From assembly GCA_902591495.1 (NCBI GenBank), contig CACJAW010000008.1:1-64000 (forward strand): 64,000 nucleotides of DNA, in the 5' to 3' direction. The position numbers and the translations under genes are program-made. Source of the stretch: an uncultured Pseudohongiella sp. (GTDB lineage: Bacteria; Pseudomonadota; Gammaproteobacteria; Pseudomonadales; Pseudohongiellaceae). This document shows positions 8,521 through 63,723 of this stretch, piece after piece. Each line of letters begins with the position of its first letter. Within the stretch, counting starts at the first letter, position 1. Below the pieces are notes generated by a model that ran no database searches, was not told the DNA's origin, and saw only the letters and a program-made list of their open reading frames with translations.

Positions 8521-9699
8521 ATGAAAACTTTTTTAAGTGATCGAAAGTCTTTTTTATTTATCTTAGCAGTCGGCAACGCGATCGCTTTTGCCACGTGGCA
8601 GGTTTTGCTCAATAACTTTGTTGTTGAGCGAGCGGCGTTTACCGGGGAAGAGATTGGCATCCTGCAGAGCTTACGAGAGGTGCCCGGTTTCCTGGCATTT
8701 ACTGCTATTGGAGTTCTTCTTTTCATCCGTCAACAAAACTTCGCTACTCTATCCTTGATTACTCTAGGAGTTGGCACCGCTATAACAGCATTTTTCCCAA
8801 CCGCCCTATGGCTTTACCTCTCGACAGTAATCATGTCCTTTGGGTTTCATTATTTAGAAACCATGCATAACTCTCTAAGCCTGCAATGGTTAACAAAGGA
8901 GGAAGCACCTACGGTCTTGGGTCAATTACTTAGCACAAGAGCAATAAGTAATTTGTTGGTGCTCAGTTCGATTTATTTATACCTAGTATTTTTCCCAGCT
9001 AACTATATTCTCATCTATCTCTTAGCCGGGGGCTCAGCAATACTGATCGGGATATTTTGTTGGACGGCGGTGCCACAATTCGAGGAAACTGTAGTTCAAA
9101 GGACTGAATTGTTCTTAAGAAAAAAATACTGGCTGTATTACGTTTTAACTTTTTTAGCGGGAGCCCGCAGACAGATCTTTGTGGTTTTCGCCGGATTTTT
9201 AATGGTAGAAAAATTTGGTTTCGCCATTGAGAATGTCGTTATGTTAACGCTGGTTAACTCAGCACTCACCTTTTGGCTTGCTCCAAAAATCGGCTCTTTA
9301 ATTGGTCACATTGGAGAGAGGCGCGCCTTGACTCTGGAATATCTTGGCTTAATCCTTGTGTTCGTTAGCTATGCTTTTGTGAATTCAGCCGCGGTTGCCG
9401 TGGCACTTTACTTACTCGACCATCTTTTCTTCGCCATGGCGATAGCAATTAAGACATACTTCCAAAAGATAGCTGATCCCGCAGACATAGCGGCTACTTC
9501 TTCTATTAGCTTCACGATCAACCACATTGCAGCAGTCGTCTTACCTGCCGCGCTAGGTCTATTATGGGTAATAAACCACAGCGCTGTATTCTTTGCCGGC
9601 GCAGCTATTGCTGCAATTTCCCTTGGATTAGCTCAGCTAATTCCTGACAAACCAGGACAGGACATAGTTACCCGCCGGGTCTACTCTTTAATATCCTAA
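8521..9699 (+). CDS. MFS-type transporter
   Basis: Polytopic, ~12 hydrophobic segments; start MKTFLSDRKSFLF. Confidence 0.75.
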   Translation: MKTFLSDRKSFLFILAVGNAIAFATWQVLLNNFVVERAAFTGEEIGILQSLREVPGFLAFTAIGVLLFIRQQNFATLSLITLGVGTAITAFFPTALWLYLSTVIMSFGFHYLETMHNSLSLQWLTKEEAPTVLGQLLSTRAISNLLVLSSIYLYLVFFPANYILIYLLAGGSAILIGIFCWTAVPQFEETVVQRTELFLRKKYWLYYVLTFLAGARRQIFVVFAGFLMVEKFGFAIENVVMLTLVNSALTFWLAPKIGSLIGHIGERRALTLEYLGLILVFVSYAFVNSAAVAVALYLLDHLFFAMAIAIKTYFQKIADPADIAATSSISFTINHIAAVVLPAALGLLWVINHSAVFFAGAAIAAISLGLAQLIPDKPGQDIVTRRVYSLIS

Positions 9700-48740: not shown

Positions 48741-48860
48741 ATGTAAAAGCTAACAGCTACCGCAGTGAGAGAGGCCACGGCTATGGCTACATCTAAAACG
48801 TATAATCCGTGAGACGGTGGTATTCTATGCTTGCATGTGAAATCCGATGGAACTAACTAT
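48741..48860 (+). pseudogene. Relic N-terminus of a P4-type (DUF4102 arm-binding) tyrosine integrase
   Basis: Frame read-through gives KLTATAVREATAMATSKTYNP*DGGILCLHVKSDG, resembling 'LTATAVRNAKP...YKLxDGGGLYLxVxPxG'; TAA after the ATG and an internal TGA. Confidence 0.72.
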
Positions 48861-51813
48861 TGAACAGGCGCTGCGGCAGGGCGTGAAAGCGCAAAAAGCA
48901 GGTAAACTTCAGGAAGCCGAACGCTTTTATCGAGCTATCTTGCAGTCTCAGCCTAGGCACTCAGACGCTAATCATAATTTAGGGTTAATAGCAGTGTCCG
49001 TTAATAAAGCGGATGCCGCGTTGCCGCTGTTTAAAACTGCTCTGGAAGCCAATCCAAAACGAGAGGTGTTTTGGCTGAGTTACGTCGATGCTCTCGTCAG
49101 AGACAAAAAGCTTGAAGCCGCGAAGCAAGTCCTCAAGCAAGCGAAGCAGCGGGGAGTCGCCGGCGAAAAATTAAATGCCTTAGCGGTGCAACTTGCATCT
49201 ATAAAAGGAACAGAAAGTATTTCCCTCCCAGCCCCACCTCAGGAGCAACTCAGTAATCTTTTGCAATACTATCAGAATGGGCGATATGACGACGCTGAAA
49301 GGCTTGCAATATCTATCACTCAAGAATTCCCAATGCATCAGTTTGGCTGGAAAGTCTTAGGCGCCGTACTCAAACAAACAGGCAGACTGAGTGAGTCATT
49401 AACTTCTATGCAAAAGTCTGTACAACTAGCGCCCCAAGATGCTGGAGCCCACAGTAATTTGGGCATCACGTTTAAAAGCCTTGGAAGATTGGAAGACGCT
49501 GAAGAAAGTTTTATACAGGCAATAGCGTTGAAACCTGACCTCGCCGAAATCCACAGCAACTTGGGTAACACGCTAAAAGAGCTGGGCAGATTAGAGGAGG
49601 CTGAAGCAAGTTATAAGAAAGCGATAAGTTTGAAACCTGACTATGCGGAGGCCCACAGTAACTTGGGCGTAACGCTGCAGGAGCTGGACAGATTATCCGA
49701 GGCTGAAGAAAGTTTTATCCAGGCAATAGCGTTGAAACCTAGCCATGCCGAATCCCACAACAACTTGGGTATCACGCTCAAAGAACTGCGTAGACTTGGC
49801 GAAGCTGAAGCGAGCTTTAAACAAGCAATAGCATTGAAGCCTGACTTTGCAGAAGCCCACAATAACTTAGGTAACTCGGTTCATGAACATGGCAAATTAG
49901 AGGAGGCTGAAGCGAGCTTTAAACAAGCGATAGCGTTGAAACCTGACTTTGCTCTAGCCCACAACAACTTGGGTAACTCTCACAATGAACTGGATAGATT
50001 CGATGAGGCAGAAGCTAGCTATAATAAAGCGATATGTTTTAAACCTGATTTTGCTGAAGCCCATAACAACTTAGGTAACTCGCTAAATGATCTGGGTAGA
50101 TTAGAGGAGGCAGAAGCAAGCTATAAGAAAGCGATAAGTTTGAAACCTGACTATGGTAATGCCTATTACAACTTTGGTATCACGCTACAAAAATTGAATA
50201 GATTAACCGAGGCTGTAGCGAACTACGCCCAAGCGATAGCGTTGACATCTGACAATGCTGATGCCTACTACAATATGGGGAGTGCTCTTCAAAATTTTGT
50301 CTTGACTAAGCCAGACTCTGATCTCCAACAAATAGTTATCACACTTCTCGATGGAGAAACTTATGTTAGTCCTGCAGAGATTTCTCTGGCAGTAATGAGC
50401 CTTTTAAAGTTTGAGCCGCTTTTACAGAAAGCTTTCAAAAAGCATTCTGTTGGAGAGCTTATGCAGGCAGTCCAGGAAACTATTTTGGACCTCTCTGACT
50501 TACCAATGTTACTGAAATTCATGAGTGTTTGCCCTATCCCTGATCCAGAGCTGGAAGGTCTTTTCCGAGAAATGCGTACTTGTTTACTTTTATTAAATTT
50601 TGAAACTATCGGAAATCCAAACGCGTTGCCCTTTCAATCAGCATTAGCACTTCAATGTTTCACGAATGAGTATATTTATAGTCAAACAAAAAAAGAATCT
50701 GATGCACTCAAAAAATTAGAATTGGTAATAGAAAAAGGACTGTCAAAAGGAATACAGCCAAGTCCGCAATCTATATTGTGTTTGGCCTCTTATAAACCTT
50801 TATATAAGTATGAATGGTGTAAATTGCTTACTACAAACTCTTATGTAGAAGACGTATTCACTCGGCAAATTATCGAGCCTAAGGAAGAAAATCGACTAAG
50901 AACTGAAATTCCCGCTTTACAAGAGATTACTAACAAAGTGTCATCAAGAGTTCGGGAGCAATACGAAGCCAACCCTTATCCTAGGTGGGTTAAGATACGA
51001 CTAGATCCAAGCCCCAAAACAATTTCGAAGATAGTTAAACGTGCAAATTTAAGGCTCTGTGATAAAAAAATACTTGATGTAACATGTCCGAATATTTTAA
51101 TCGCTGGCTGTGGAACGGGCCAACACTCGATAGGCACTGCAAGTGACATTAAAAACTCTAAGGTTCTTGCCGTGGATCTTAGCTTGTCCAGCTTAGCTTA
51201 CGCCAAGCGCAAGACAGAGGAATTAGGTATTCAAAACATAGAGTATATGCAGGCTGATATTTTGGATTTAAGGCAACTCAAGAGTCAGTTTAATATTATC
51301 GAAAGTGCTGGGGTCCTTCATCATATGGAAAACCCTATCGCGGGATGGAAAGTTCTGACGAACTGCTTAAGCCCTGGTGGGCTTATGAAAATAGGCTTAT
51401 ACAGTGAATTGGCTAGGCAAAACATCTTAGAAATGCGAAACGAGATCGAACAAGTCGGTCTTGAGCTAAGTGACGATTCAATGAGGTCTTTCAGAAACGC
51501 TATAATTGAGTCAAATGAGGAGCATCATAAACAGATACTTCTGAGTCCTGACCTTTATAGTCTGAGTACACTCAGAGACCTTCTGTTTCATGCACAAGAG
51601 CATCGTTTCAGCATACCTCAAGTAAAAGAATGCCTTGATGAGCTGGGGTTAAAGTTTTGTGGTTTCGAAAATCCAAATATAGTCATTGACTTCGAGCGGA
51701 GCAACCCCGAGCCAGATAGTCTTTTCGATTTAAATAAGTGGCATTCGTATGAAGAAGTAAACCCATTCTCATTTGGAGGAATGTATCAATTTTGGTGTCA
51801 GAAGATAGTTTAA
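48847..51813 (+). CDS. TPR-repeat protein with C-terminal class I SAM-dependent methyltransferase
   Basis: 988 aa; 'NLGNTLKELGRLEEAEASYKKAISLKP' TPR array; 'ILIAGCGTGQHSIGTA', 'ESAGVLHHMENPIAGWKVL' methyltransferase. Confidence 0.9.
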   Translation: MELTIEQALRQGVKAQKAGKLQEAERFYRAILQSQPRHSDANHNLGLIAVSVNKADAALPLFKTALEANPKREVFWLSYVDALVRDKKLEAAKQVLKQAKQRGVAGEKLNALAVQLASIKGTESISLPAPPQEQLSNLLQYYQNGRYDDAERLAISITQEFPMHQFGWKVLGAVLKQTGRLSESLTSMQKSVQLAPQDAGAHSNLGITFKSLGRLEDAEESFIQAIALKPDLAEIHSNLGNTLKELGRLEEAEASYKKAISLKPDYAEAHSNLGVTLQELDRLSEAEESFIQAIALKPSHAESHNNLGITLKELRRLGEAEASFKQAIALKPDFAEAHNNLGNSVHEHGKLEEAEASFKQAIALKPDFALAHNNLGNSHNELDRFDEAEASYNKAICFKPDFAEAHNNLGNSLNDLGRLEEAEASYKKAISLKPDYGNAYYNFGITLQKLNRLTEAVANYAQAIALTSDNADAYYNMGSALQNFVLTKPDSDLQQIVITLLDGETYVSPAEISLAVMSLLKFEPLLQKAFKKHSVGELMQAVQETILDLSDLPMLLKFMSVCPIPDPELEGLFREMRTCLLLLNFETIGNPNALPFQSALALQCFTNEYIYSQTKKESDALKKLELVIEKGLSKGIQPSPQSILCLASYKPLYKYEWCKLLTTNSYVEDVFTRQIIEPKEENRLRTEIPALQEITNKVSSRVREQYEANPYPRWVKIRLDPSPKTISKIVKRANLRLCDKKILDVTCPNILIAGCGTGQHSIGTASDIKNSKVLAVDLSLSSLAYAKRKTEELGIQNIEYMQADILDLRQLKSQFNIIESAGVLHHMENPIAGWKVLTNCLSPGGLMKIGLYSELARQNILEMRNEIEQVGLELSDDSMRSFRNAIIESNEEHHKQILLSPDLYSLSTLRDLLFHAQEHRFSIPQVKECLDELGLKFCGFENPNIVIDFERSNPEPDSLFDLNKWHSYEEVNPFSFGGMYQFWCQKIV
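49438..50290 (+). repeat. 102-bp-period TPR-encoding tandem repeats (~8 units)
   Basis: 34-aa periodic 'AHNNLGNSL..LGRLEEAEASYKKAISLKPDFAE'; nearly identical 55-bp blocks at 49591 and 50101 (510 bp = 5 x 102 apart). Confidence 0.9.
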
Positions 51814-53054: not shown

Positions 53055-54284
53055 CTAGTGGTTAAAAATATCTATTGGTAAAAGCGCCGTCACACCAACA
53101 TTAGGAGAATCAACAAGCTGACTAATCCGCAAATCAACCGCCACACTAGCGATTACATAAGCCTGATTTCGGTCATAGCCATACTCGGACGTAATGTAGT
53201 CGATTATACCATCAACTGCATTTCTTGCCGCTAAGCTAATGTCGTTAGATAAATTAGTCAATCCCGGCACAAAATCTGAATTTAGGTAACCCATCCTTGG
53301 TGGCACCTCGCCCGATTCTTTAACGGGAATTCCAGTTACTGCGTAAAACCGACGAGACGGTATATCCAAAACATCAGACACTCCCTCATAGTGTGGCCCC
53401 CGAGAAAGGTCGGGTCCATTCTTGATTACCTCGGTGGTTACGCGGACATTGGCCGACATTTCGATTGCAGTACCCGAAACCTCTCCGTCTCCTTGCGCAT
53501 AATGCAAGTCACCAATAGTGAGACCGCAACCCTCAATATAGCACGGTAAGTAAATGGAGACACCGGCCTGCAAATAGCGAATATCCATGTTACCTCCATG
53601 CTCTCTGGGCGGAATCGTTCTCAAGCATTCAGTGGGAACAATCCCGCTAGGCCCACAAATATGTTCTGGTGAGGCTCCTTCTGAGAAAGGCAGAGAAACT
53701 TGACCACCGGCATCTGCCAGAGCCCTCTCCCGATCCAACATTTCAACCAACTGAGCTGGTCCCGGCAAAACCGAGACGACACCTGGAAAACTAGCATTAG
53801 GAATTCTTACACCGGGAATGTCATCACTCTCTGCAAATTCACTGTTGAGTCGCCAGATAGTCAAAAAATTACCCTCGACCAAATCGGGAATAAACCCTCC
53901 ACTCCCACCACGAGTGAAGCCAAATTTTCCGGGATCAATACTCAAAATGTTAACCTTTAAAGTATCGCCTTCACTTGCACCAGTGATATAAACTGGTCCA
54001 GCCATTGGATGCACGGACCCAAAATCCCTGTCTAAAGTCTCTGGCTCCTCATCCTGATCTGCGATTACACCAAGTACATCGTTCGCATCACGGGTGCGGA
54101 AAAGAATGGTTTGACCAGGGTTTGCAGTATGAGTCATGGGAATCAATGGGTGTAGACGATTCACACAACCTGAATCTTCGATACAATTGGAACCATCGCC
54201 GCCAACAACCACCAACTCTTGGGCTCCGTGGAGTGCCTTACTAAGAAATGAGCATAATAAAATCGTTAGCCATCTATAAAGCAT
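53055..54284 (-). CDS. Acetamidase/formamidase family protein with signal peptide
   Basis: 'GPVYITGASEGDTLKVNILSIDPGKFGFT', 'IGDLHYAQGDGEVSGTAIEMSANVRV'. Confidence 0.88.
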   Translation of the reverse strand: MLYRWLTILLCSFLSKALHGAQELVVVGGDGSNCIEDSGCVNRLHPLIPMTHTANPGQTILFRTRDANDVLGVIADQDEEPETLDRDFGSVHPMAGPVYITGASEGDTLKVNILSIDPGKFGFTRGGSGGFIPDLVEGNFLTIWRLNSEFAESDDIPGVRIPNASFPGVVSVLPGPAQLVEMLDRERALADAGGQVSLPFSEGASPEHICGPSGIVPTECLRTIPPREHGGNMDIRYLQAGVSIYLPCYIEGCGLTIGDLHYAQGDGEVSGTAIEMSANVRVTTEVIKNGPDLSRGPHYEGVSDVLDIPSRRFYAVTGIPVKESGEVPPRMGYLNSDFVPGLTNLSNDISLAARNAVDGIIDYITSEYGYDRNQAYVIASVAVDLRISQLVDSPNVGVTALLPIDIFNH

Positions 54285-54314: not shown

Positions 54315-55238
54315 TTACAGAGGCCGCTGTATTGTTTGACGCTGGAACCCAAGACCTTCAACACCTACGCGGACAACATCACCCGGTGTCAGGTATACGG
54401 GAGGTTCCATGCCATCTCCTACGCCGGCTGGGGTTCCCGTGAAAATTATGTCTCCCGGATTCAATGTCATGAACTGGCTTAGATGGCTTACTATTTCTTT
54501 AACGCCAAAAACCATGTCAGTTGTGTTCCCCTGTTGACGCTTTTCACCATTGACCTCTGACCAAATTGCAAGGTTTTGAACGTCTTTTATCATGTCTCGT
54601 GTTACGAGATATGGCCCAACAGGTGCGAAAGTATCCCCGCTTTTCCCTTTGGTAAACTGCCCTCCCCTCTCTCTCTGAAAGGCCCGCTCAGAAACATCAT
54701 GCCCTACTGTAAACCCGGCGATGTGATCAAAAACCTCATTCTCGTCTATATATTGAGCTTTACGACCAATTACCACCACCAGCTCTGACTCATAATCAAG
54801 CTTATGCCCATCGCGCGGCTGGATGACGTTATCAAATGGGCCAGTTAATGCCGAAGTAGCTTTCATGAATACCAACGGCTCGGAGGGCAAATCCACAGCC
54901 ATTTCCGCAGCGTGATTTACATAGTTAAAGCCAATCGCCACTATCTTGCCAATTCCTGTAAGCGGGATTCCAAGTCTATGATCCCCTGGAACAACTGGAA
55001 TCTGATCGAGCGGGATTTCGGCGATCTCCTCAAGAGCTTCATCAGAGAGCTGGCTGGGAGTAATGTCCTCAATAAATGCCGATAGGTCATGTATTTGGTT
55101 TTGATCATCTAAAAGGCCAGGCTTCTCCTCCCCAATCGGACCAAAGCGCACGAGTCGAAGCTCAGTAGCGCTTACCAGTCCTGCTAGAGTAAAAAACACA
55201 CTGATAACAGCGACGTCGACTAATTTATTTAGAAACAT
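54315..55238 (-). CDS. Fumarylacetoacetate hydrolase family protein with N-terminal signal-like segment
   Basis: 'IVAIGFNYVNHAAEM', 'DYESELVVVIGRKA', 'LNPGDIIFTGTPAGVG'. Confidence 0.9.
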   Translation of the reverse strand: MFLNKLVDVAVISVFFTLAGLVSATELRLVRFGPIGEEKPGLLDDQNQIHDLSAFIEDITPSQLSDEALEEIAEIPLDQIPVVPGDHRLGIPLTGIGKIVAIGFNYVNHAAEMAVDLPSEPLVFMKATSALTGPFDNVIQPRDGHKLDYESELVVVIGRKAQYIDENEVFDHIAGFTVGHDVSERAFQRERGGQFTKGKSGDTFAPVGPYLVTRDMIKDVQNLAIWSEVNGEKRQQGNTTDMVFGVKEIVSHLSQFMTLNPGDIIFTGTPAGVGDGMEPPVYLTPGDVVRVGVEGLGFQRQTIQRPL

Positions 55239-55344: not shown

Positions 55345-56385
55345 TCATTTCACCGCCATCTCTAATAACGTTAATTTCCTCTCGTCAGCATCCAGTCGAG
55401 CGGTTAATCCTAATGGCACAACCGTCTGGTCCTGGGTGTGACCAATCATAAGGCCTTTCACGACTGGAATACCAAGATTTTCGCATCTAGCTCGGAGTAC
55501 CTCCTCCACACTAAAAGTATTACTTCCATAGCTCACATTCGTGAACTTACCAAACGCTATACCTGCTACTTGCTCTAATTTGCCTGAAAGCCAAAGATGT
55601 GTAAGCATCCTATCAATGCTGTATGGCGGTTCGTAAACATCCTCTAAAAATAGTATTGCTCCGTCAAAATCCGGTTCATACTCAGTCCCTAGAAGCGTCA
55701 CTAATAATGATAAGTTACCACCAACCAATCTACCCTCAGCGATTCCACGCGATATCCTCGTTACCCTGTTCTCACGCTCCACGCGCCCGGGTCCTGACTC
55801 AAAATTTGGCGGCTCGCCAAGATCAACCATTTTTTGTGGATTCCGTAGTACTTTTTCAAATTGCTCGAATGTATAGTCCGTGAAATTCTCAAACGCCATC
55901 GGACCATGGTAGGTGACTAAACCCGTTTTTACCTGTATCGCATTTAACAGCGCTGTAATGTCACTGTAACCCATAAAGACTTTGGGATTAGCGGCTATAA
56001 TTTCATAATCCAAGAAAGGAAGAATCCTTGGCGCCCCGTAACCACCTCTAGTGCAGAAAATCGCATCTATTTCTGGGTCTGCAAAAAAAGTATTTAAATC
56101 CCGAGCCCGCTGCTGGTCAGTTCCGGCAAGATATTGGTTGCGAGCAAATAAATTAGGCGAGGCCTTAGCCTCAAACCCCAGAGACCTCACAAACTCAATC
56201 GAAGCCAAAATATCTTCATCTTCTGCTGCATTACTTGCGGGAGAGACTAATCCCACTGTCATGCCAGACTCAAGCTTATCTGGTTTTATCACCTCACGTT
56301 TTTGAGCAAAAGAAAAACCAGAAGCTGTCGAAACAGCTGTCCCAGTCGCTGCATAGTTTAAAAACTGTCGTCTAGTTACCGGCAT
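55345..56385 (-). CDS. LD-carboxypeptidase (peptidase S66 family) with Tat-like signal
   Basis: 'VTRRQFLNYAATG' twin-Arg; 'IFCTRGGYGAPRILPFLDYEII', 'VFMGYSDITALLNAI'. Confidence 0.88.
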   Translation of the reverse strand: MPVTRRQFLNYAATGTAVSTASGFSFAQKREVIKPDKLESGMTVGLVSPASNAAEDEDILASIEFVRSLGFEAKASPNLFARNQYLAGTDQQRARDLNTFFADPEIDAIFCTRGGYGAPRILPFLDYEIIAANPKVFMGYSDITALLNAIQVKTGLVTYHGPMAFENFTDYTFEQFEKVLRNPQKMVDLGEPPNFESGPGRVERENRVTRISRGIAEGRLVGGNLSLLVTLLGTEYEPDFDGAILFLEDVYEPPYSIDRMLTHLWLSGKLEQVAGIAFGKFTNVSYGSNTFSVEEVLRARCENLGIPVVKGLMIGHTQDQTVVPLGLTARLDADERKLTLLEMAVK

Positions 56386-56503
56386 GCTCCGACTCCCTGC
56401 AAGAACTTCCAAGAGCTACAATATAACATGGGAATAATAAAAAGACTCCGTGATTCAAAACGTCATAGTCGACTCTCTAAAGGTTTTTTTGTTAAATTGT
56501 GTC

Positions 56504-57271
56504 ATGTCAGTTACCAGCACAAAAATTAGGCGTGAGCTTTCTATGCAAGGAGCCTTAGGGACAGCCTTTCTAGTGCTCATTTCCACTACTTTGGGATTTT
56601 TAGACAGCGCTAAACTTGCTACCAATTTCCTTATCATCAGCGGGATAAGCTGGTTTTATGTCCTTGCAAATTGTCATGGTAAATTGCACCTCAACTTCGA
56701 CCCAAAGAGTGAACGGTACTTTCACAAACTTGGTATAGGTAATCGCCTAACGTTAACAAGAGGACTACTTATTGGGGCGACCGCTGGATTCATCGGGACA
56801 GACCCCTCAACTCTCAGCAAATTTGCTGTGTTTTTACCAGCTATTTTTTACACAGTCGCGGCGATAGGAGATGCGTTGGATGGTTATATTGCTAGGGTAA
56901 CAATGCAGACTACTCAATTGGGAAGTGAGTTAGATAACGAACTTGATGCTTTCGGATTATTAATAGCACCAGTCCTAGCTGTACTCTGGAACAAACTTCA
57001 TTTCACTTACCTTCTTGTATCAGCCGCTTTTTATGTTTTTAGACTTGGTATTTATCTTAGAAAACACCAAGGAAAACCGGTTTACGAACTTGTTCCAAAC
57101 CGATTTCGTCGGAGACTAGCAGGCTATCAGATGGGCGTGGTTGCGACTTCTCTTTGGGCTCCCATACCAGCCGAACTAACAAAACCAGTAGGAGTCTTGT
57201 TAATGATTCCTCTCCTAATAAGATTTTTGCTAGATTGGCTACAAATCAGCGGGCGGATCAAAAAAAAATGA
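56504..57271 (+). CDS. CDP-alcohol phosphatidyltransferase family protein
   Basis: Complete motif DALDGYIARVTMQTTQLGSELDNELD = DxxDGxxARx8GxxxDxxxD; start uncertain (GTG 56450 or ATG 56504). Confidence 0.88.
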   Translation: MSVTSTKIRRELSMQGALGTAFLVLISTTLGFLDSAKLATNFLIISGISWFYVLANCHGKLHLNFDPKSERYFHKLGIGNRLTLTRGLLIGATAGFIGTDPSTLSKFAVFLPAIFYTVAAIGDALDGYIARVTMQTTQLGSELDNELDAFGLLIAPVLAVLWNKLHFTYLLVSAAFYVFRLGIYLRKHQGKPVYELVPNRFRRRLAGYQMGVVATSLWAPIPAELTKPVGVLLMIPLLIRFLLDWLQISGRIKKK

Positions 57272-58290
57272 TCGCAAGATTTCAGAAGAAAAAATTCTTA
57301 AACAACTTAATTTGGTTCAGTGCCGTTGTCCTTTTAATTTTAACCGTTCGTGAGTTACCTATTAGTGAAATGCTTCAGCGCATTTATGCGATTTCATTTT
57401 CTGCATGGACCACATTATTTTTTGTCAATTTAGTTATACTTTTTCTAGCTGTCAAACGTTGGCAAATTCTTTCTAGAACATTTGATATTAAGATATCTTT
57501 TGCGCGCCTATTCACTATCCGCCAAGCAGGTAGCACTTTTAGTTTTGTGACACCCGGCCCTCAATTTGGGGGAGAGCCTCTCCAAGCCTATTGGCTTTAT
57601 CAAGATCACGGGATGCGACTGGATAACATTATTGCTCTTATTGGAGCAGATCGCTTTATTGAAATTTTTATCAATTTTTCATTTTTATTTCTGAGTATCT
57701 TACTAGTAATACAAGGAAATATAGAGGCTGACTTATCTAATGCTGTTCTTTTTGTTTCTCTCTCATTAGTCTGCCTCATAGCCTTGTTGTTGTTATTTTT
57801 ATATAAATATCGTTTTATCGTTAGTGCGTTATTTTCGTTGTATGGCAAGGTATTTCAGAAAGCATCGGATAAAGATCAGGAAGAACGGATAATCACCAGT
57901 ATAAGCATGATTTTTTCAAGGATTGAGAAAGATAAATTAAGAGTGTCTTTTGCGATATTTATTGGAGTATTCGGATGGCTTGCTCTTATTTTCGAATTGT
58001 ATCTAATGATGAGTGCATTAAATCTCACTCCTGATCTTTATGAAATAGTGTTTGTCATGCTTGGAATTCGAATAGCATTACTGATGCCAATTCCTGGTGG
58101 AGTTGGGACCATTGAGGCCTCGCTAATATGGTCTTTCGGTATCCTTGGCATCAGTTTGGTTGGAGCTGGTGGGGTAATGGCCTTAAACAGAATAAGAGAT
58201 TTAATAATTCTTGCAATTGGTGCTGGATGCTTATTTTATCTGTCGAGTCCTAACTCAAGACGGGAGAATTTTTCAGAGCGAGGTCAATAA
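57268..58290 (+). CDS. Lysylphosphatidylglycerol synthase TM region/flippase-like family membrane protein
   Basis: Polytopic; 'FSFVTPGPQFGGEPLQAYWLYQDHG', 'MPIPGGVGTIEASL'; ATGA overlap with preceding gene. Confidence 0.82.
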   Translation: MIARFQKKKFLNNLIWFSAVVLLILTVRELPISEMLQRIYAISFSAWTTLFFVNLVILFLAVKRWQILSRTFDIKISFARLFTIRQAGSTFSFVTPGPQFGGEPLQAYWLYQDHGMRLDNIIALIGADRFIEIFINFSFLFLSILLVIQGNIEADLSNAVLFVSLSLVCLIALLLLFLYKYRFIVSALFSLYGKVFQKASDKDQEERIITSISMIFSRIEKDKLRVSFAIFIGVFGWLALIFELYLMMSALNLTPDLYEIVFVMLGIRIALLMPIPGGVGTIEASLIWSFGILGISLVGAGGVMALNRIRDLIILAIGAGCLFYLSSPNSRRENFSERGQ

Positions 58291-58314
58291 CCCAAAGTAA
58301 TCTGTGCTTTTGAA

Positions 58315-58692
58315 CTATATCTCGCTCTTGTAGGCAGCCCAACAACTCTCATTTTCCCATAACTTTACAGATAGTGTCCCGGTAGGTCCCATTTTAATTT
58401 TTTTTGCCAATTTCTGATTAAGAATACGGGAAAAGTGTTCGATACTCGGATTGAGACCCTCGAATTCCGGCTTGTCGTTTAGCATGGTGTCACGAAAGTA
58501 ATCAACAATACCATCCAAACCTGCCTCGATATCAACAATATCAACGAGATAGCCATGCTCGTCCAGAGTGTCGCTTTCAATACTAACCTCGACCACATAA
58601 TGGTGAGCGTGTGGTTCGTTCTCAGCACCCCAGTCGCCACCAATTAAAAAATGGTTCGCGATAAATTCTCTAGTTACAGCTACTTTATACAT
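58315..58692 (-). CDS. PTPS/6-carboxytetrahydropterin synthase-like (QueD superfamily), atypical active site
   Basis: 'FIANHFLIGGDWGAENEPHAHHYVVEV' (H ... HxH), 'LNPSIEHFSRIL'. Confidence 0.8.
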   Translation of the reverse strand: MYKVAVTREFIANHFLIGGDWGAENEPHAHHYVVEVSIESDTLDEHGYLVDIVDIEAGLDGIVDYFRDTMLNDKPEFEGLNPSIEHFSRILNQKLAKKIKMGPTGTLSVKLWENESCWAAYKSEI

Positions 58693-58700
58693 AAATTCCT

Positions 58701-59732
58701 CTATCCATCTTCGTATTTAAATATAACTTGCAATATTCCTTTCTCTCCATCATTGATTCGCTTATAGAACTCAGGGGCATCTTGAATATCTACAGAGTGA
58801 GAGATAAATTTACTGGGTTTCACCTTCTTCAGCATTTCCCATACTAAACTGATTCTCCGGGCCTTATCCCATCGTCCAGTCAAGTCTGGTCCAATTGTAC
58901 TCACTTGACTGGTGATAAATTGAAGGCGATTCCTGTGAGCTACGCCACCCAATTCAACCTTAGCTGATCTAGTCCCGTACCAACTACCGAGCACTATACG
59001 ACTGGAAAAACCGGCTAATTCAATAGCCAAATTCACTGCTTCTGGCTGACCACTAACTTCATAAATCAAATCTGCGTCAGATACGGCAGAAAGCTCATTC
59101 AGGGTTAACTTTTCGGGAGCAAATACGTTTGCAACACCAGCTTGCTTTGACCACTCTCGACGGTCTTCATCTTTGTCAAAACTTGTTAGAGAGGCGAGTG
59201 GGTACTGTGACAACAAACCAGCTAACAATAAACCCACGATACCCTGACCTAAAATAACAACACTCTCACCCACTAACGGTTTCCCGTCTTGAGCTAAATT
59301 CACTGCCGTTTCCATATTTGGCAAAAAAACGGCATCCTTCATCGCAACACCTTCAGGTATTGCGATTAACTCCTTTATTGAGGCAACAAAATGGCTTACA
59401 TGTGGATGAAAGCAAAAAACTTCGCGCCCTAACCAACTAGTTTCAACCTTTGCACCCACTTCAATAATGCTACCAACACATGCATAGCCATATTTTTTTG
59501 GATACCCTACACCGGTCTTTAGACTTTCAATTGAACTATCCATAGGCATATCACTCGGCATTTCACCTCTATAAAGAAGCAGCTCTGAGCCAGCACTAAT
59601 GGCTGAGTAGAGAACAGAAACTAGGACCTCAGTTGGACCCGGTTTTCTCAACTCAGTTTTTCGCACCTCTACTTGATTTGGTGCAGTAAACCACACTTCT
59701 TGAGACTGGCGATGTTCTAATTTATTGTTCAT
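58701..59732 (-). CDS. MDR/zinc-type alcohol dehydrogenase family protein
   Basis: 'VVILGQGIVGLLLAGLLSQYPLASLTSFDKD' Rossmann; start at MNNKLEHRQSQ. Confidence 0.85.
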   Translation of the reverse strand: MNNKLEHRQSQEVWFTAPNQVEVRKTELRKPGPTEVLVSVLYSAISAGSELLLYRGEMPSDMPMDSSIESLKTGVGYPKKYGYACVGSIIEVGAKVETSWLGREVFCFHPHVSHFVASIKELIAIPEGVAMKDAVFLPNMETAVNLAQDGKPLVGESVVILGQGIVGLLLAGLLSQYPLASLTSFDKDEDRREWSKQAGVANVFAPEKLTLNELSAVSDADLIYEVSGQPEAVNLAIELAGFSSRIVLGSWYGTRSAKVELGGVAHRNRLQFITSQVSTIGPDLTGRWDKARRISLVWEMLKKVKPSKFISHSVDIQDAPEFYKRINDGEKGILQVIFKYEDG

Positions 59733-59737
59733 CAGAT

Positions 59738-60454
59738 CTAGTTTTTGTAATCGATTTCGCCCCAAACAATGATCTCATCATCCTGCTGATGACTATTCAG
59801 AGCTACAATTCTCGGAAAGATAGAATCATTGACCAAAGTATTTACTGCTTTGTATCCTCCGACCAGCATAGGGGCAACTGTTAACGTTATCGCGTCTGCT
59901 AATTGTGCTTTGAGAAATGAGGAAATGACATTAGCTCCACCTTCAACCATTAAAGTTTTTATCCCTCTCGCATAAATAGCGCTCATTGCTGATTCTAAAT
60001 CCACTCTACCTTCGTTATCGGATTCAACAACTATTTGCTCGAAGGTGCTTTGGTAATCTTTTACTTGCGAATTTGTTAGTACCCATGGCTTTTGGTTATT
60101 TTCCCGGCAAATTTTGCTATCAGAGGGGAGCCTTTGACTACTATCAAGCACTATTGGTTGAGGACTAGGTCCACCCCACTCTCTTACGTTAAGCAAAGGA
60201 TCATCCGCTAGCACAGTGCCAATACCTATCAAAATCCCATCATGCCAGCTTCGAAGGGCATGCGTCATAGCATTAGTGGTACGGCTACTAAGCGAAATAG
60301 TCTTTCCGGGCTCGGTAGTTATGCTCCCATCCCAGCTCTGAGCATAGCTCAGAGTAATAATTGGCCTATTTTCGGATTCGCATTTGCTCGCAAGGGCGCC
60401 GGACTCTTGACGCAAACTAGTCAACCATCGCAATATTTGGTCATTGAGCTTCAT
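59738..60454 (-). CDS. RibD C-terminal (reductase) domain protein
   Basis: 'ITLSYAQSWDGSIT', 'HDGILIGIGTVLADDPLLNVR', 'PIVLDSSQRLP', 'VEGGANVISSFL'; no deaminase domain. Confidence 0.88.
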   Translation of the reverse strand: MKLNDQILRWLTSLRQESGALASKCESENRPIITLSYAQSWDGSITTEPGKTISLSSRTTNAMTHALRSWHDGILIGIGTVLADDPLLNVREWGGPSPQPIVLDSSQRLPSDSKICRENNQKPWVLTNSQVKDYQSTFEQIVVESDNEGRVDLESAMSAIYARGIKTLMVEGGANVISSFLKAQLADAITLTVAPMLVGGYKAVNTLVNDSIFPRIVALNSHQQDDEIIVWGEIDYKN

Positions 60455-60458
60455 TAAC

Positions 60459-61073
60459 TCATTTCTTTAAGGTTTTGATCTTTAAGATGTGATTCATCCT
60501 TTGCGCCTTGGTTTCGAGATAACTAACGTTGTCAGAGTTAGCAGCAATATCCAGCGAAACTCTTTTTGACACGACAATACCCAAATCCTCAAGCGCATTT
60601 ATTTTCCCTGGATTATTTGTAATTAAATCTACTGAACTGACTCCTAAGTCACGAAAAATGTGCGCGGCTAGGGAGTAATCTCGAGCATCCGCCTCGTGGC
60701 CTAACTCTAGATTAGCATCCACTGTATCTAAGCCTTTATCTTGTAAATTATAGGCTCTTAATTTTTCTAGAAGACCAATACCTCTTCCTTCCTGCCTCAG
60801 ATAAACTATTACTCCGATACCAATTTCTGAAATCATTTTCATCGAACAGTCGAGCTGCTCCCCACAGTCACATCGCCTTGAGCCTAAAACATCCCCCGTA
60901 AAACACTCTGAGTGAACACGAGCGAGCACCGACTGATGTTGAGAAAGGTCTCCCATAAATAGTGCCAGATGCTCCTTGCTATCTTGTGTGTTTGAGTAAA
61001 AGCATAGCTGAAAATCCCCATAATCGGTGGGAATTCGTGTGCTCACCTCGCGAGTAACTTCAAGTTTATTCAT
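60459..61073 (-). CDS. ribA: GTP cyclohydrolase II
   Basis: 'ARVHSECFTGDVLGSRRCDCGEQL', 'YLRQEGRGIGLLEKLRAYNLQDKGLDTVDAN'. Confidence 0.95.
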   Translation of the reverse strand: MNKLEVTREVSTRIPTDYGDFQLCFYSNTQDSKEHLALFMGDLSQHQSVLARVHSECFTGDVLGSRRCDCGEQLDCSMKMISEIGIGVIVYLRQEGRGIGLLEKLRAYNLQDKGLDTVDANLELGHEADARDYSLAAHIFRDLGVSSVDLITNNPGKINALEDLGIVVSKRVSLDIAANSDNVSYLETKAQRMNHILKIKTLKK

Positions 61074-61202
61074 TTTGGTTTGTAGAAAAAATCCTATAAC
61101 TGTTAATCTTATACCAAGCTTAATTTATCAATCATCACCTGTCTATTTAGGCCTATGATTCACTAAAATTAAGCATACAACTTTAAAAATGGATGTAGTC
61201 AC

Positions 61203-62255
61203 TTGTTAAATTCGGAACTGTATTTCGTTTTTCCTGGTAATCTTAACACCAATACTGGTGGCTATCATTACGACCGCAGAGTCATCGAAGAACTAGGAAA
61301 ACTGGGCAGCTCCGTAAAAATTATCTCCCTGTCAGAGGAGTTTCCTTTCCCAGACGAAATTGCTTTAAGAAATACTGCATATATTTTTTCAAGTATACCA
61401 GATGATTCCGTTGTAATCGTGGATGGTTTGGCTTTTGGGGCGATGAAAAATGTGATAAGACTTCACAAAAATAGGCTTTATTTGATCGCACTCTGTCACC
61501 ATCCTTTAGCTATGGAAACAGGATTAAATCCTCGTGAAAGAGAATCACTTCTTCAATCCGAGAACTATGCCCTTAAAAACGCAGCTCATGTCATAGTAAC
61601 TAGCCAAAATACGCGCAAAATTTTGATCGAGGATTTTTCAATTTCGGCGTCTCAAATTACGGTTGCCCTTCCAGGAACAGATAGATATCCATTCGCTAAG
61701 TGTAATGGTTCACCAACAAGACTTTTAACTTGCGCGTCTCTTACAAAGCGGAAAGGTCATGATGTACTCATTGAAGCATTAAGCAAAATTGATTTTTTAG
61801 ACTGGCAAGCCCGGTTCGTTGGCGATGAAACTCTTGACCCAGCATGGGCTTGCGAGCTAAAGAATAGAGCTGAACTTAGAGGTCTGAGTGACCAGATTGA
61901 GTTTGTTGGCGCTGTTGCTAACATCTCTCTTGAATACCAAAATGCAGATATTTTTGTCTTACCGTCAAAATTTGAGGGTTATGGCATGGTGTTATCCGAA
62001 GCGATAGCACATGGGTTACCAATAGTCTCAACTCGGGTTGGAGCTATCCCGGAAGTGGTTCCTGAGTCCGCTGGAATCCTCGTTGATATTGAAGATCACT
62101 CTGCTTTGGCGGCAGCACTAAAAAAACTAATCTTAGATAACGATTTGAGGAACAAAATGCAACTGGGTGCCCAAAAAGCAGCGTTGACCCTGCCCTCCTG
62201 GGGAATTTGCGCTGACCTCATAGCAAAGGGCATGGAGACAATTCCTAAAAAATGA
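61203..62255 (+). CDS. Glycosyltransferase family 4 protein
   Basis: TTG start; 'LTCASLTKRKGHDVLIEAL', 'FVLPSKFEGYGMVLSEAIAHGLPIVSTRVGAIPEVV'. Confidence 0.9.
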   Translation: MLNSELYFVFPGNLNTNTGGYHYDRRVIEELGKLGSSVKIISLSEEFPFPDEIALRNTAYIFSSIPDDSVVIVDGLAFGAMKNVIRLHKNRLYLIALCHHPLAMETGLNPRERESLLQSENYALKNAAHVIVTSQNTRKILIEDFSISASQITVALPGTDRYPFAKCNGSPTRLLTCASLTKRKGHDVLIEALSKIDFLDWQARFVGDETLDPAWACELKNRAELRGLSDQIEFVGAVANISLEYQNADIFVLPSKFEGYGMVLSEAIAHGLPIVSTRVGAIPEVVPESAGILVDIEDHSALAAALKKLILDNDLRNKMQLGAQKAALTLPSWGICADLIAKGMETIPKK

Positions 62256-63082
62256 GCGGATTTAGTATCGAGTGGCTTAATTTAAGAGAAGTCTCGGATC
62301 ACAGAGCCCGAGATAAAGATTTGCTTAAGACTGCGGTTGACTGGTTAAACAACCTTAAAGCGAAGGATAAAGTGATTGTTGATTTAGGAAGCGGGACTGG
62401 CTCTACAATTCGAGGACTACAGAGATACACAACGCTAACACCTTCAATTCAATGGAGACTAGTTGATAATGATCCTGGGTTGCTAGCTGAGGCTATTCAT
62501 AGACATTCAGAGGAGTACTCAATCGAGAGCTTTTTAGTAGATCTTTCTGAAACTCAAAAACTACCGCTCAAATCAGTAAGTTTGATAACAGCCTCTGCTC
62601 TTCTCGACCTCGTATCCGAGAATTTTATCCGGGATTTGTGTCAACTCATCAAAGAAAAGAATGAGTCCCAACCCGTAGGATTTTATTCTACTCTCAACTA
62701 TGATGGATGCATAAAATGGACGCCTTTTCATCCTCTTGATGCATCAATTCTCATGAACTTTAATGCCGATCAGAGGAGAAATAAAGGTTTTGGTCCGGCG
62801 CTAGGCCCTGACGCGACCGATTTTCTAACAAGACAATTTCACTGTGCCAAGTTTCAATGCCTAAGCGCAAAGAGCCCTTGGTTACTTGGTCCTGCTGATT
62901 ATCTATTAACAGAATCCCTGATTAATGGTATCTCGGGTGTCGCTATTAAGACGGACGGATTAACAAATTCAGACATCCTAGATTGGAAAACCTTTAGAAT
63001 GAAGAATATTAGAACTGGAACTTGTTTTTTAGGACATACTGATATTTTAGTTCTACCAAACAGTTTGGCACGTTACAGATAA
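62252..63082 (+). CDS. Class I SAM-dependent methyltransferase
   Basis: 'VIVDLGSGTGSTIRGL', 'WRLVDNDPGLLAEA'; ATGA overlap with glycosyltransferase. Confidence 0.82.
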   Translation: MSGFSIEWLNLREVSDHRARDKDLLKTAVDWLNNLKAKDKVIVDLGSGTGSTIRGLQRYTTLTPSIQWRLVDNDPGLLAEAIHRHSEEYSIESFLVDLSETQKLPLKSVSLITASALLDLVSENFIRDLCQLIKEKNESQPVGFYSTLNYDGCIKWTPFHPLDASILMNFNADQRRNKGFGPALGPDATDFLTRQFHCAKFQCLSAKSPWLLGPADYLLTESLINGISGVAIKTDGLTNSDILDWKTFRMKNIRTGTCFLGHTDILVLPNSLARYR

Positions 63083-63120: not shown

Positions 63121-63723
63121 TTATTCTTGTACAGCCTCAAACTCAAAACGTAGTATCACTTTGTTCCCTACCATGTCGTTCGACACACCATAATCCATAC
63201 CCCAAAGGCTTCGATCAATAACGGTGTTTGCTGATATTCCAATAGTTTCTTTTCTATGTCCAAACGGGTATCTAGCAAACTTGTTTAGCTTAATATCCAG
63301 GATTATGGGATGGGTCATTCCGAGAAGTGTTAGGTTACCTAGCAACTCACCACCAGATCGTTGCTGATTGGGGAGAAACTCACTAGCCTCAAATAAAATC
63401 GTTGGATGCCTTCTTGAATTCAAAAAATCTCTGCCTCTCAAATGATCATCTCGATCATCATTATTAGAGAAAATGCTTCCCGCTTGAATTTCTACTCGAC
63501 CCGAAAAGAACTCGAAAGTTCCAGGGTCAAAATCAAACTCCCCAGACCCTTCTAAAAAAAGACCTAATTGACTTTGATATCCTATATGGTCTGTTTCAAA
63601 CACTATAGAGAAATGCTCGGGATCGATCTCCCACGTGACTGGTTGGCCAATCACAGCGCCACTAGGGCCTAACAAACCGAATGACAGCAACAAAAATATT
63701 TTTAATTTTATTAGCGAGCTCAT
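63121..63723 (-). CDS. YceI family periplasmic protein
   Basis: 'WEIDPEHFSIVFETDHIGYQSQLGLFLEGSGEFDFDP'. Confidence 0.88.
   Translation of the reverse strand: MSSLIKLKIFLLLSFGLLGPSGAVIGQPVTWEIDPEHFSIVFETDHIGYQSQLGLFLEGSGEFDFDPGTFEFFSGRVEIQAGSIFSNNDDRDDHLRGRDFLNSRRHPTILFEASEFLPNQQRSGGELLGNLTLLGMTHPIILDIKLNKFARYPFGHRKETIGISANTVIDRSLWGMDYGVSNDMVGNKVILRFEFEAVQE

Follow-up and report, generated by a model that had tools for sequence, protein, structure and literature searches.

The window analysed here, a stretch of 64,000 nucleotides (64 kb) from an uncultured Pseudohongiella sp. (contig CACJAW010000008.1), carries at 56504-63082 a cluster of eight genes (Table 1) which, on the evidence of its gene families and their recurrence, is a widely conserved, uncharacterised GTP-derived pathway. 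The genes encode a GTP cyclohydrolase II (RibA), a RibD C-terminal-domain reductase (RibD-C), an MDR oxidoreductase, a PTPS/QueD-family protein, a glycosyltransferase (GT), a methyltransferase (MT), a CDP-alcohol phosphotransferase (CDP-OH) and an LPG_synthase_TM/flippase-like membrane protein (LPG). Together with a gene for a YceI-family protein they may constitute one patchily distributed pathway that would lead from GTP to a modified 2-amino-4-oxo-pteridine without FolE, a reading which is held tentatively and given somewhat less than half of our confidence. The pterin nature of the product is here the leading model. A first-pass annotation of the same DNA had proposed a GTP-derived pathway apart from those of riboflavin, queuosine and folate, and the proposal holds in the light of a separate set of rib genes in the same genome and of conservation of the cluster in distant hosts.

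Distribution and conservation

At least 574 relatives were found among GTDB genomes, and the locus counts refer to the best 80 loci, many of which lie on truncated contigs that affect the gene counts. Profiles of RibA and RibD-C were built per domain, as fused open reading frames (ORFs) merge them. The PTPS gene was present in 71 of the 80 loci, followed by GT (68), RibD-C (63), MT (57), RibA (49), CDP-OH (41), LPG (39) and YceI (9). Bacterial hosts are Gammaproteobacteria, Chloroflexota, Desulfobacterota and other deltaproteobacteria, Binatota and Neomarinimicrobiota; the archaeal ones are haloarchaea and one methanonatronarchaeon. Representatives of at least six bacterial phyla, besides haloarchaea, carry the cluster, and the co-occurrence in distant genomes that had been suggested as a check is thereby found. 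Within the order to which the organism of the window belongs, MDR homologues (E<=1e-20) occur in 23 of 195 genomes and stand beside a PTPS gene in every one. As this pairing is constant in the order and the set recurs across phyla, the arrangement is not due to chance. The distribution is nevertheless patchy, as two genomes from the genus of the window, both near-complete, have no MDR gene. This gene is found in 55 of 301 sampled Chloroflexota genomes. Plasmid records with the same block come from Methylosinus, Rhizobium, Thiodictyon, Microbacterium, Streptomyces and Haloarcula.

A fully supported branch of the MDR protein tree parts two types. Type A has a PTPS protein with the FGPAQ signature (PTPS-IV), and type B, to which the window belongs, has the signature WGxENxxH[AS]H (WGAENEPHAH in the window). 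Mirror-tree correlations within type B (r 0.66-0.86) agree with joint inheritance but, being without phylogenetic control, carry little weight. Three type-B loci from metagenome-assembled genome (MAG) bins titled Klebsiella pneumoniae (L071, L102 and L119) fall among other MAGs of gammaproteobacteria in the MDR tree, and their titles look wrong.

RibA and RibD-C are fused in 12 of the 80 loci, GT and MT in six type-A genomes of gammaproteobacteria. GTP cyclohydrolase III (GCH III) is a different family which opens the same GTP ring and keeps the formyl group. It replaces RibA in five haloarchaeal loci (L118, L127, L128, L137 and L138) and on a Natrarchaeobaculum plasmid. A further profile-based call, in Natrinema gelatinilyticum (L104), proved to be a remnant of GCH III at 8808-8927 beside an otherwise intact cluster and was dropped from this count; the related N. 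pallidum (L128) has the whole gene. Both kinds of fusion and the exchange of RibA for GCH III are evidence that the enzymes would act along one line of substrates.

Relation to riboflavin synthesis

RibA of the cluster is a GTP cyclohydrolase II by its TIGR00505 score (255.6 bits against a cut-off of 205.85); it keeps the zinc-binding Cys triad (ECFTGDVLGSRRCDCG) and the active-site Tyr, and contains the motif YLRQEGRGIG. RibD-C, with 238 amino acids, is a reductase domain alone. It is not a bacterial bifunctional RibD, since it is without the N-terminal deaminase and has Ser at the substrate-selecting Lys position. The lone reductase domain and the small or polar residue in place of Lys are instead those of a fungal or archaeal reductase of diamino-ribosylamino-pyrimidinone phosphate (DARPP). 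The best match in the PDB is the DARPP reductase 4ha7, and the score lies below the archaeal equivalog cut-off of TIGR01508.

Bacterial RibD reductases are thought to select the deaminated pyrimidine by means of a conserved lysine; in yeast ScRIB7 a Thr at the selectivity site favours the 2-amino substrate, and the exchange T35K reverses the preference to the 2-oxo form (PMC3631187). The lysine is found in none of 85 cluster reductases (0/85). Type-B reductases have Ser, Thr, Ala or Cys at this position in 67 of 69 cases and Asn in the other two, and type-A reductases have Gln or His; the housekeeping RibD of the window genome has Lys. The cluster RibD-C should thus reduce the un-deaminated 2-amino pyrimidine in the manner of fungal RIB7, and its product should be 2,5-diamino-6-ribitylamino-4-pyrimidinone phosphate. 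Because neither the lysine nor a deaminase domain is present, the 2-amino group is expected to stay in place, and for that reason a pterin product is favoured.

The families of RibA and RibD_C might suggest dispersed riboflavin housekeeping genes, but to this explanation practically no probability is given. A scan of the ORF translations with Pfam found no RibB, RibH or RibE within the cluster, and family searches located RibH, a RibBA-type protein and a RibD of full length, all three on one separate contig (C38) of the same genome, the assembly of which is 66% complete. The separate set refutes the housekeeping explanation, and the missing deaminase and bacterial Lys of the cluster reductase speak against it as well. 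The first-pass annotation was therefore right to deny a riboflavin operon, and the second rib set that it advised looking for exists. Six near relatives with the cluster also carry RibBA and a full RibD elsewhere. On a Chloroflexota chromosome (G474) RibH is missing and the only RibA and RibD-C are the cluster copies, so that the set cannot feed riboflavin there. No FMN riboswitch was found; a cobalamin riboswitch lies at L140:7410-7560, on the contig C38 with the housekeeping rib genes.

Genes of the creatininase family, to which the archaeal FAPy deformylase ArfB belongs, are close to RibA in five type-A loci, and two archaeal loci contain them as well. A Tyr-to-Met change was expected in the RibAs that co-occur with creatininase, after an S. 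coelicolor enzyme that reportedly forms FAPy. The expectation was not supported, as all 62 cluster RibAs examined keep the active-site Tyr.

The PTPS-like protein and the MDR dehydrogenase

The PTPS-like protein belongs to the PTPS/QueD superfamily of T-fold proteins (PF01242, 90.8 bits against a cut-off of 22.4). Its predicted model has a pLDDT of 95, and the top fold match in the PDB is 3d7j (SCO6650), followed by QueD; human PTPS was also matched. Among 43 sequences the metal ligands H14 (43/43), H28 (42/43) and H30 (43/43) and the pterin-anchoring Glu113 (42/43) are kept, Glu24 replaces the Cys of QueD in all 43, and the catalytic Asp-His is mostly replaced by Arg-Asp. The protein is not of the PTPS-I/QueD type (TIGR03367, 48.9 bits against 89.25), as Glu stands for Cys in the CxxxHGH motif. 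PTPS-III is defined by the motif ExxHGH (PMC5041015), and the window protein is outside this type too, its Glu lying at -4 from the first His (ExxxH[AS]H) and not at -3. Nor is it PTPS-IV, since the FGPAQ signature of the type-A loci is missing. It should bind a pterin-like ring, yet not run the QueD or the PTPS reaction.

A bypass, with this protein supplying 6-hydroxymethyl- or 6-carboxy-pterin to the housekeeping synthesis of folate or queuosine, is very improbable. The PTPS fold and a Glu near the PTPS-III position would agree with it, but the score and the spacing of the Glu do not, most relatives have a separate PTPS/QueD-family gene and FolE, and neither purpose needs GT, MT or CDP-OH. 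Both the queuosine assignment and the PTPS-III folate bypass were rejected because motif and score fail.

The MDR protein is matched poorly by Pfam (ADH_zinc_N, 3e-5, below cut-off) but recognised clearly by NCBIfam, where its best match is BchC. It is not a BchC by TIGR01202 (84.3 bits against a cut-off of 291.25). The nearest folds to the predicted model (pLDDT 90.5) are RspB and the butanediol, threonine, sorbitol and idonate dehydrogenases, and both sequence and predicted fold place the protein closest to polyol and secondary-alcohol dehydrogenases. What it shares with these and with BchC is the MDR fold, secondary-alcohol oxidation being the expected chemistry. Zinc-dependent alcohol dehydrogenases (ADH) were recognised by three catalytic ligands, a Cys in the first motif, the His in GHE and another Cys. 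The window protein is not one of them, as SxxSxG[ST]E and YGYA, near-invariant in 37 sequences, replace the first two ligand motifs; sorbitol and xylitol dehydrogenases, in contrast, have the zinc ligands. The position that contacts the NAD ribose (188 in the window) is Asp or Glu in 37/37 sequences.

Proposed pathway

In the proposed route, RibA would open GTP to DARPP, and RibD-C would reduce the ribosyl to a ribityl chain with no prior deamination. The NAD-dependent MDR may then oxidise a side-chain hydroxyl, most simply that at C2', as sorbitol and xylitol dehydrogenases do, and the 5-amino group would close onto the ketone to give a dihydropterin phosphate of the 7,8-dihydroneopterin type. 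The PTPS-like protein may bind the pterin and catalyse closure, epimerisation or side-chain trimming, after which the GT4 enzyme would add a sugar and MT a methyl group. In the last and least certain step, the CDP-alcohol phosphotransferase may join the product to a phosphatidyl group, the flippase-like protein may turn it outward, and YceI and a cytochrome b561 could be periplasmic or redox partners. Xylose reductase and xylitol dehydrogenase, leading from aldose to ketose, replace xylose isomerase. The second and third steps would resemble this pair, with two redox reactions in place of the Amadori shift of FolE.

Several observations weigh against this route. Each of the nine further type-B proteobacterial genomes tested has FolE (the window genome, which is 66% complete, yielded none), and because the hosts have FolE, a second route to dihydroneopterin would be redundant unless it led to another product. 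Reduction and oxidation cancel to an Amadori shift, which FolE performs without redox chemistry, and the MDR is without the zinc that known polyol dehydrogenases have. RibD-C is missing from the haloarchaeal clusters (for this step they may share ArfC), and in many cluster-bearing haloarchaea there is a single GCH III. About half of the 80 loci are without CDP-OH and LPG, in part because contigs are short. In a Chloroflexota sublineage (L173-L177) an antiporter-like gene stands between MDR and PTPS, and the locus is without RibA and RibD-C.

It is also conceivable, though we regard it as doubtful, that the same GTP pathway ends in another product, an 8-substituted pteridine or an open-ring pyrimidine conjugate. 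The MDR would in that case act elsewhere or as a reductase, and the PTPS-like protein would handle the ribityl-diaminopyrimidine. With a PTPS devoid of the catalytic Cys, Asp and His and an MDR devoid of zinc, neither enzyme need run the textbook reaction, and the FolE of the proteobacterial hosts points the same way. The pterin-anchoring Glu, kept in 42 of 43 PTPS sequences, argues for a pterin ring, however, and the likeness of the MDR to polyol dehydrogenases with its NAD-type residue fits oxidation of the ribityl chain.

Sugar, methyl and membrane genes

Addition of a sugar, of a methyl group and, most of all, of a lipid in the proposed pteridine route is inferred from family membership. 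Glycosylation and methylation of the product are plausible, given that the cluster retains GT and MT and that six genomes have the two fused. Lipid attachment is possible, and membrane anchoring is a reasonable guess. The CDP-alcohol enzyme has an intact catalytic motif (D-AL-DG-YI-AR-(8)-G-SEL-D-NEL-D, read from the translation), in agreement with the CDP-alcohol phosphatidyltransferase pattern D(x)2DG(x)2AR(x)8-9G(x)3D(x)3D, and it scores 48 bits against 22 for PF01066. The LPG_synthase_TM protein is the transmembrane (TM) region alone, with no aminoacyl-transfer domain, and exceeds the cut-off of the flippase-like family TIGR00374. YceI is part of the conserved neighbourhood; in nine type-B loci it is the gene immediately after GT-MT, and several type-A loci have it after the CDP-alcohol gene.

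Alternatively, the GTP/pteridine genes and the lipid/glycan genes (CDP-OH, LPG, GT and MT) might be separate modules that are unrelated and only happen to be adjacent, which is rather improbable. In the window the genes lie on different strands, and CDP-OH and LPG vary in position besides being absent from about half of the loci. GT, on the other hand, is found in 68 of the 80 loci and often directly follows PTPS on the same strand, CDP-OH and LPG are found again in gamma- and alphaproteobacteria, Actinomycetota and Chloroflexota, and haloarchaea have CDP-OH too.

If all of these steps were real, the result would be a FolE-independent pterin pathway of bacteria and haloarchaea making a glycosylated, methylated and phospholipid-anchored pterin that is flipped to the membrane's outer face, a new redox- or light-active lipid class served by YceI and cytochrome b561. 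This extended version is considered unlikely.

Relation to known systems

The early riboflavin pathway of fungi and archaea (RibA or GCH III, then RIB7/ArfC) has the same ring opening and the same reduction ahead of deamination, and the reductase has a small residue at the yeast selectivity position as there. The cluster differs by having no deaminase and no lumazine synthase, and by continuing to MDR and PTPS. With FolE-dependent synthesis of pterins (folate, biopterin and queuosine) it shares a PTPS-family enzyme and a presumed dihydropterin, but its entry is through RibA, a reductase and a dehydrogenase, whereas the known pathways enter through FolE. Limipterin and cyanopterin are derived from FolE/biopterin, and their synthesis is not known to involve RibA, RibD-C, an MDR or a CDP-alcohol enzyme. 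In these pterin glycosides, likened to the cluster by function, the pterin is likewise modified by a glycosyltransferase, as by the Chlorobium pteridine glycosyltransferase (PMC5683033).

Searches of the literature for this gene combination turned up no paper describing a pathway. A network study of 2017 reported PF00925 and PF01872 beside PTPS-IV in 561 sequences, called PF00925 FolE2 and put forward no pathway (PMC5445326); the cyclohydrolase was thereby misnamed. The PTPS-IV neighbourhood of that study (AGeNNT cluster-node 62, with 3d7j SCO6650) shares with the cluster the gene context of MDR, PTPS, GT, MT, RibD-C and CDP-OH, as seen in the type-A loci L036-L058. PTPS-IV, like the window protein, is without the known PTPS catalytic residues; the window protein differs in having no FGPAQ and in carrying WGxENxxH[AS]H with all three metal His. 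Part of the type-A context was thus visible in 2017. The present analysis adds the type found in the window, the replacement of RibA in archaea, the predicted selectivity of the reductase and the two kinds of fusion.

A role in F420 has been stated for PTPS-IV from unpublished data (PMC5041015). CofD is in fact present in the four haloarchaea tested, in the Chloroflexota chromosome G474 and in three type-A genomes. It is nevertheless absent from all ten type-B proteobacterial genomes tested (that of the window being 66% complete), and 11 of 14 type-A genomes are without it too, which leaves an F420 or deazaflavin role scarcely any credit; it is rejected by the absence of CofD and, for the window, largely refuted through its near relatives. 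The first-pass annotation had suggested a product like a modified pterin or deazaflavin, or a pyrimidine metabolite. A pterin is favoured by the predicted retention of the 2-amino group, whereas a deazaflavin is not supported, CofD being absent.

Gene layout and neighbourhood

The window ORFs and their translations confirm eight genes between 56504 and 63082, with the strands listed in Table 1. The almost contiguous minus-strand block described earlier is real, with gaps of 4 bp (RibA/RibD-C), 5 bp (RibD-C/MDR, taking the ATG at 59732 as the MDR start) and 8 bp (MDR/PTPS), and so are the two ATGA overlaps, at 57268-57271 in the CDP-alcohol/LPG pair and at 62252-62255 in the GT/MT pair.

Table 1. 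Features of the cluster in the 64-kb window
Feature	Position	Strand	Evidence
CDP-alcohol phosphatidyltransferase-family membrane enzyme (CDP-OH)	56504..57271	+	PF01066 CDP-OH_P_transf 2e-12, 48 bits
LPG_synthase_TM/flippase-like membrane protein (LPG)	57268..58290	+	PF03706 1.5e-37, 130 bits; TIGR00374 96 bits
PTPS/QueD-family protein	58315..58692	-	PF01242 8e-26, 90.8 bits
BchC/RspB/polyol-dehydrogenase-like MDR oxidoreductase	58701..59732	-	TIGR01202 84.3 bits, below cut-off
RibD C-terminal-domain reductase (RibD-C)	59738..60454	-	PF01872 RibD_C 2.5e-42, 145 bits
GTP cyclohydrolase II (RibA)	60459..61073	-	PF00925 GTP_cyclohydro2 3e-67; TIGR00505 255.6 bits
Divergent intergenic region ribA/glycosyltransferase, 129 bp	61074..61202	.	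presumed two-way promoter, inferred from sequence
GT4-family glycosyltransferase (GT)	61203..62255	+	PF00534 2e-33, 116 bits
SAM-dependent methyltransferase (MT)	62252..63082	+	PF13649 Methyltransf_25 1e-4, weak
YceI-family periplasmic lipid-binding-type protein, accessory member	63121..63723	-	PF04264 112 bits

About 6 kb from the cluster lies a gene for a HAD Cof-type phosphatase (PF08282; 52170-52988, minus strand), a homologue of which stands near the cluster in L035. Enzymes of this broad family include riboflavin-pathway phosphatases, and the protein could strip the ribityl phosphate. The minus-strand gene at 54315-55238 encodes a fumarylacetoacetate-hydrolase-like protein (family named by eye) with an apparent N-terminal signal sequence, and its homologues lie near the cluster in L060, L097, L102 and L127. 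Its neighbours at 53055-54284 and 55345-56412 were named, also by eye, as a secreted-looking hydrolase and an LD-carboxypeptidase-like gene. At 48847-51813 on the plus strand an ORF of 988 amino acids shows many near-identical TPR-like repeats followed by a methyltransferase-like domain, again as judged by eye. In other hosts, a hydrophobic and presumably membrane protein of about 118 amino acids (L089:1852-2208), which has no Pfam match, is encoded close to the cluster, namely in ten loci of Chloroflexota and in one of Haloarcula. Several gammaproteobacteria have a neighbour that was first labelled 'sulfatase'; as Pfam did not support this label, it was dropped.

Biological meaning

FolE, GTP cyclohydrolase I, is the start of most known biological pterins (PMC13259868). 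If the proposed pteridine pathway is true, it would be a second biological entry into pteridines, by way of riboflavin-type ring opening, with a non-homologous first enzyme in several archaea. It would also give functions to orphan subfamilies, namely the window type of PTPS, PTPS-IV, the BchC-like MDR and the GT4/MT pair. Pterins act in the bacterial periplasm, though no pterin efflux system is known (PMC13259868), and the membrane steps, if real, would bear on this missing system.

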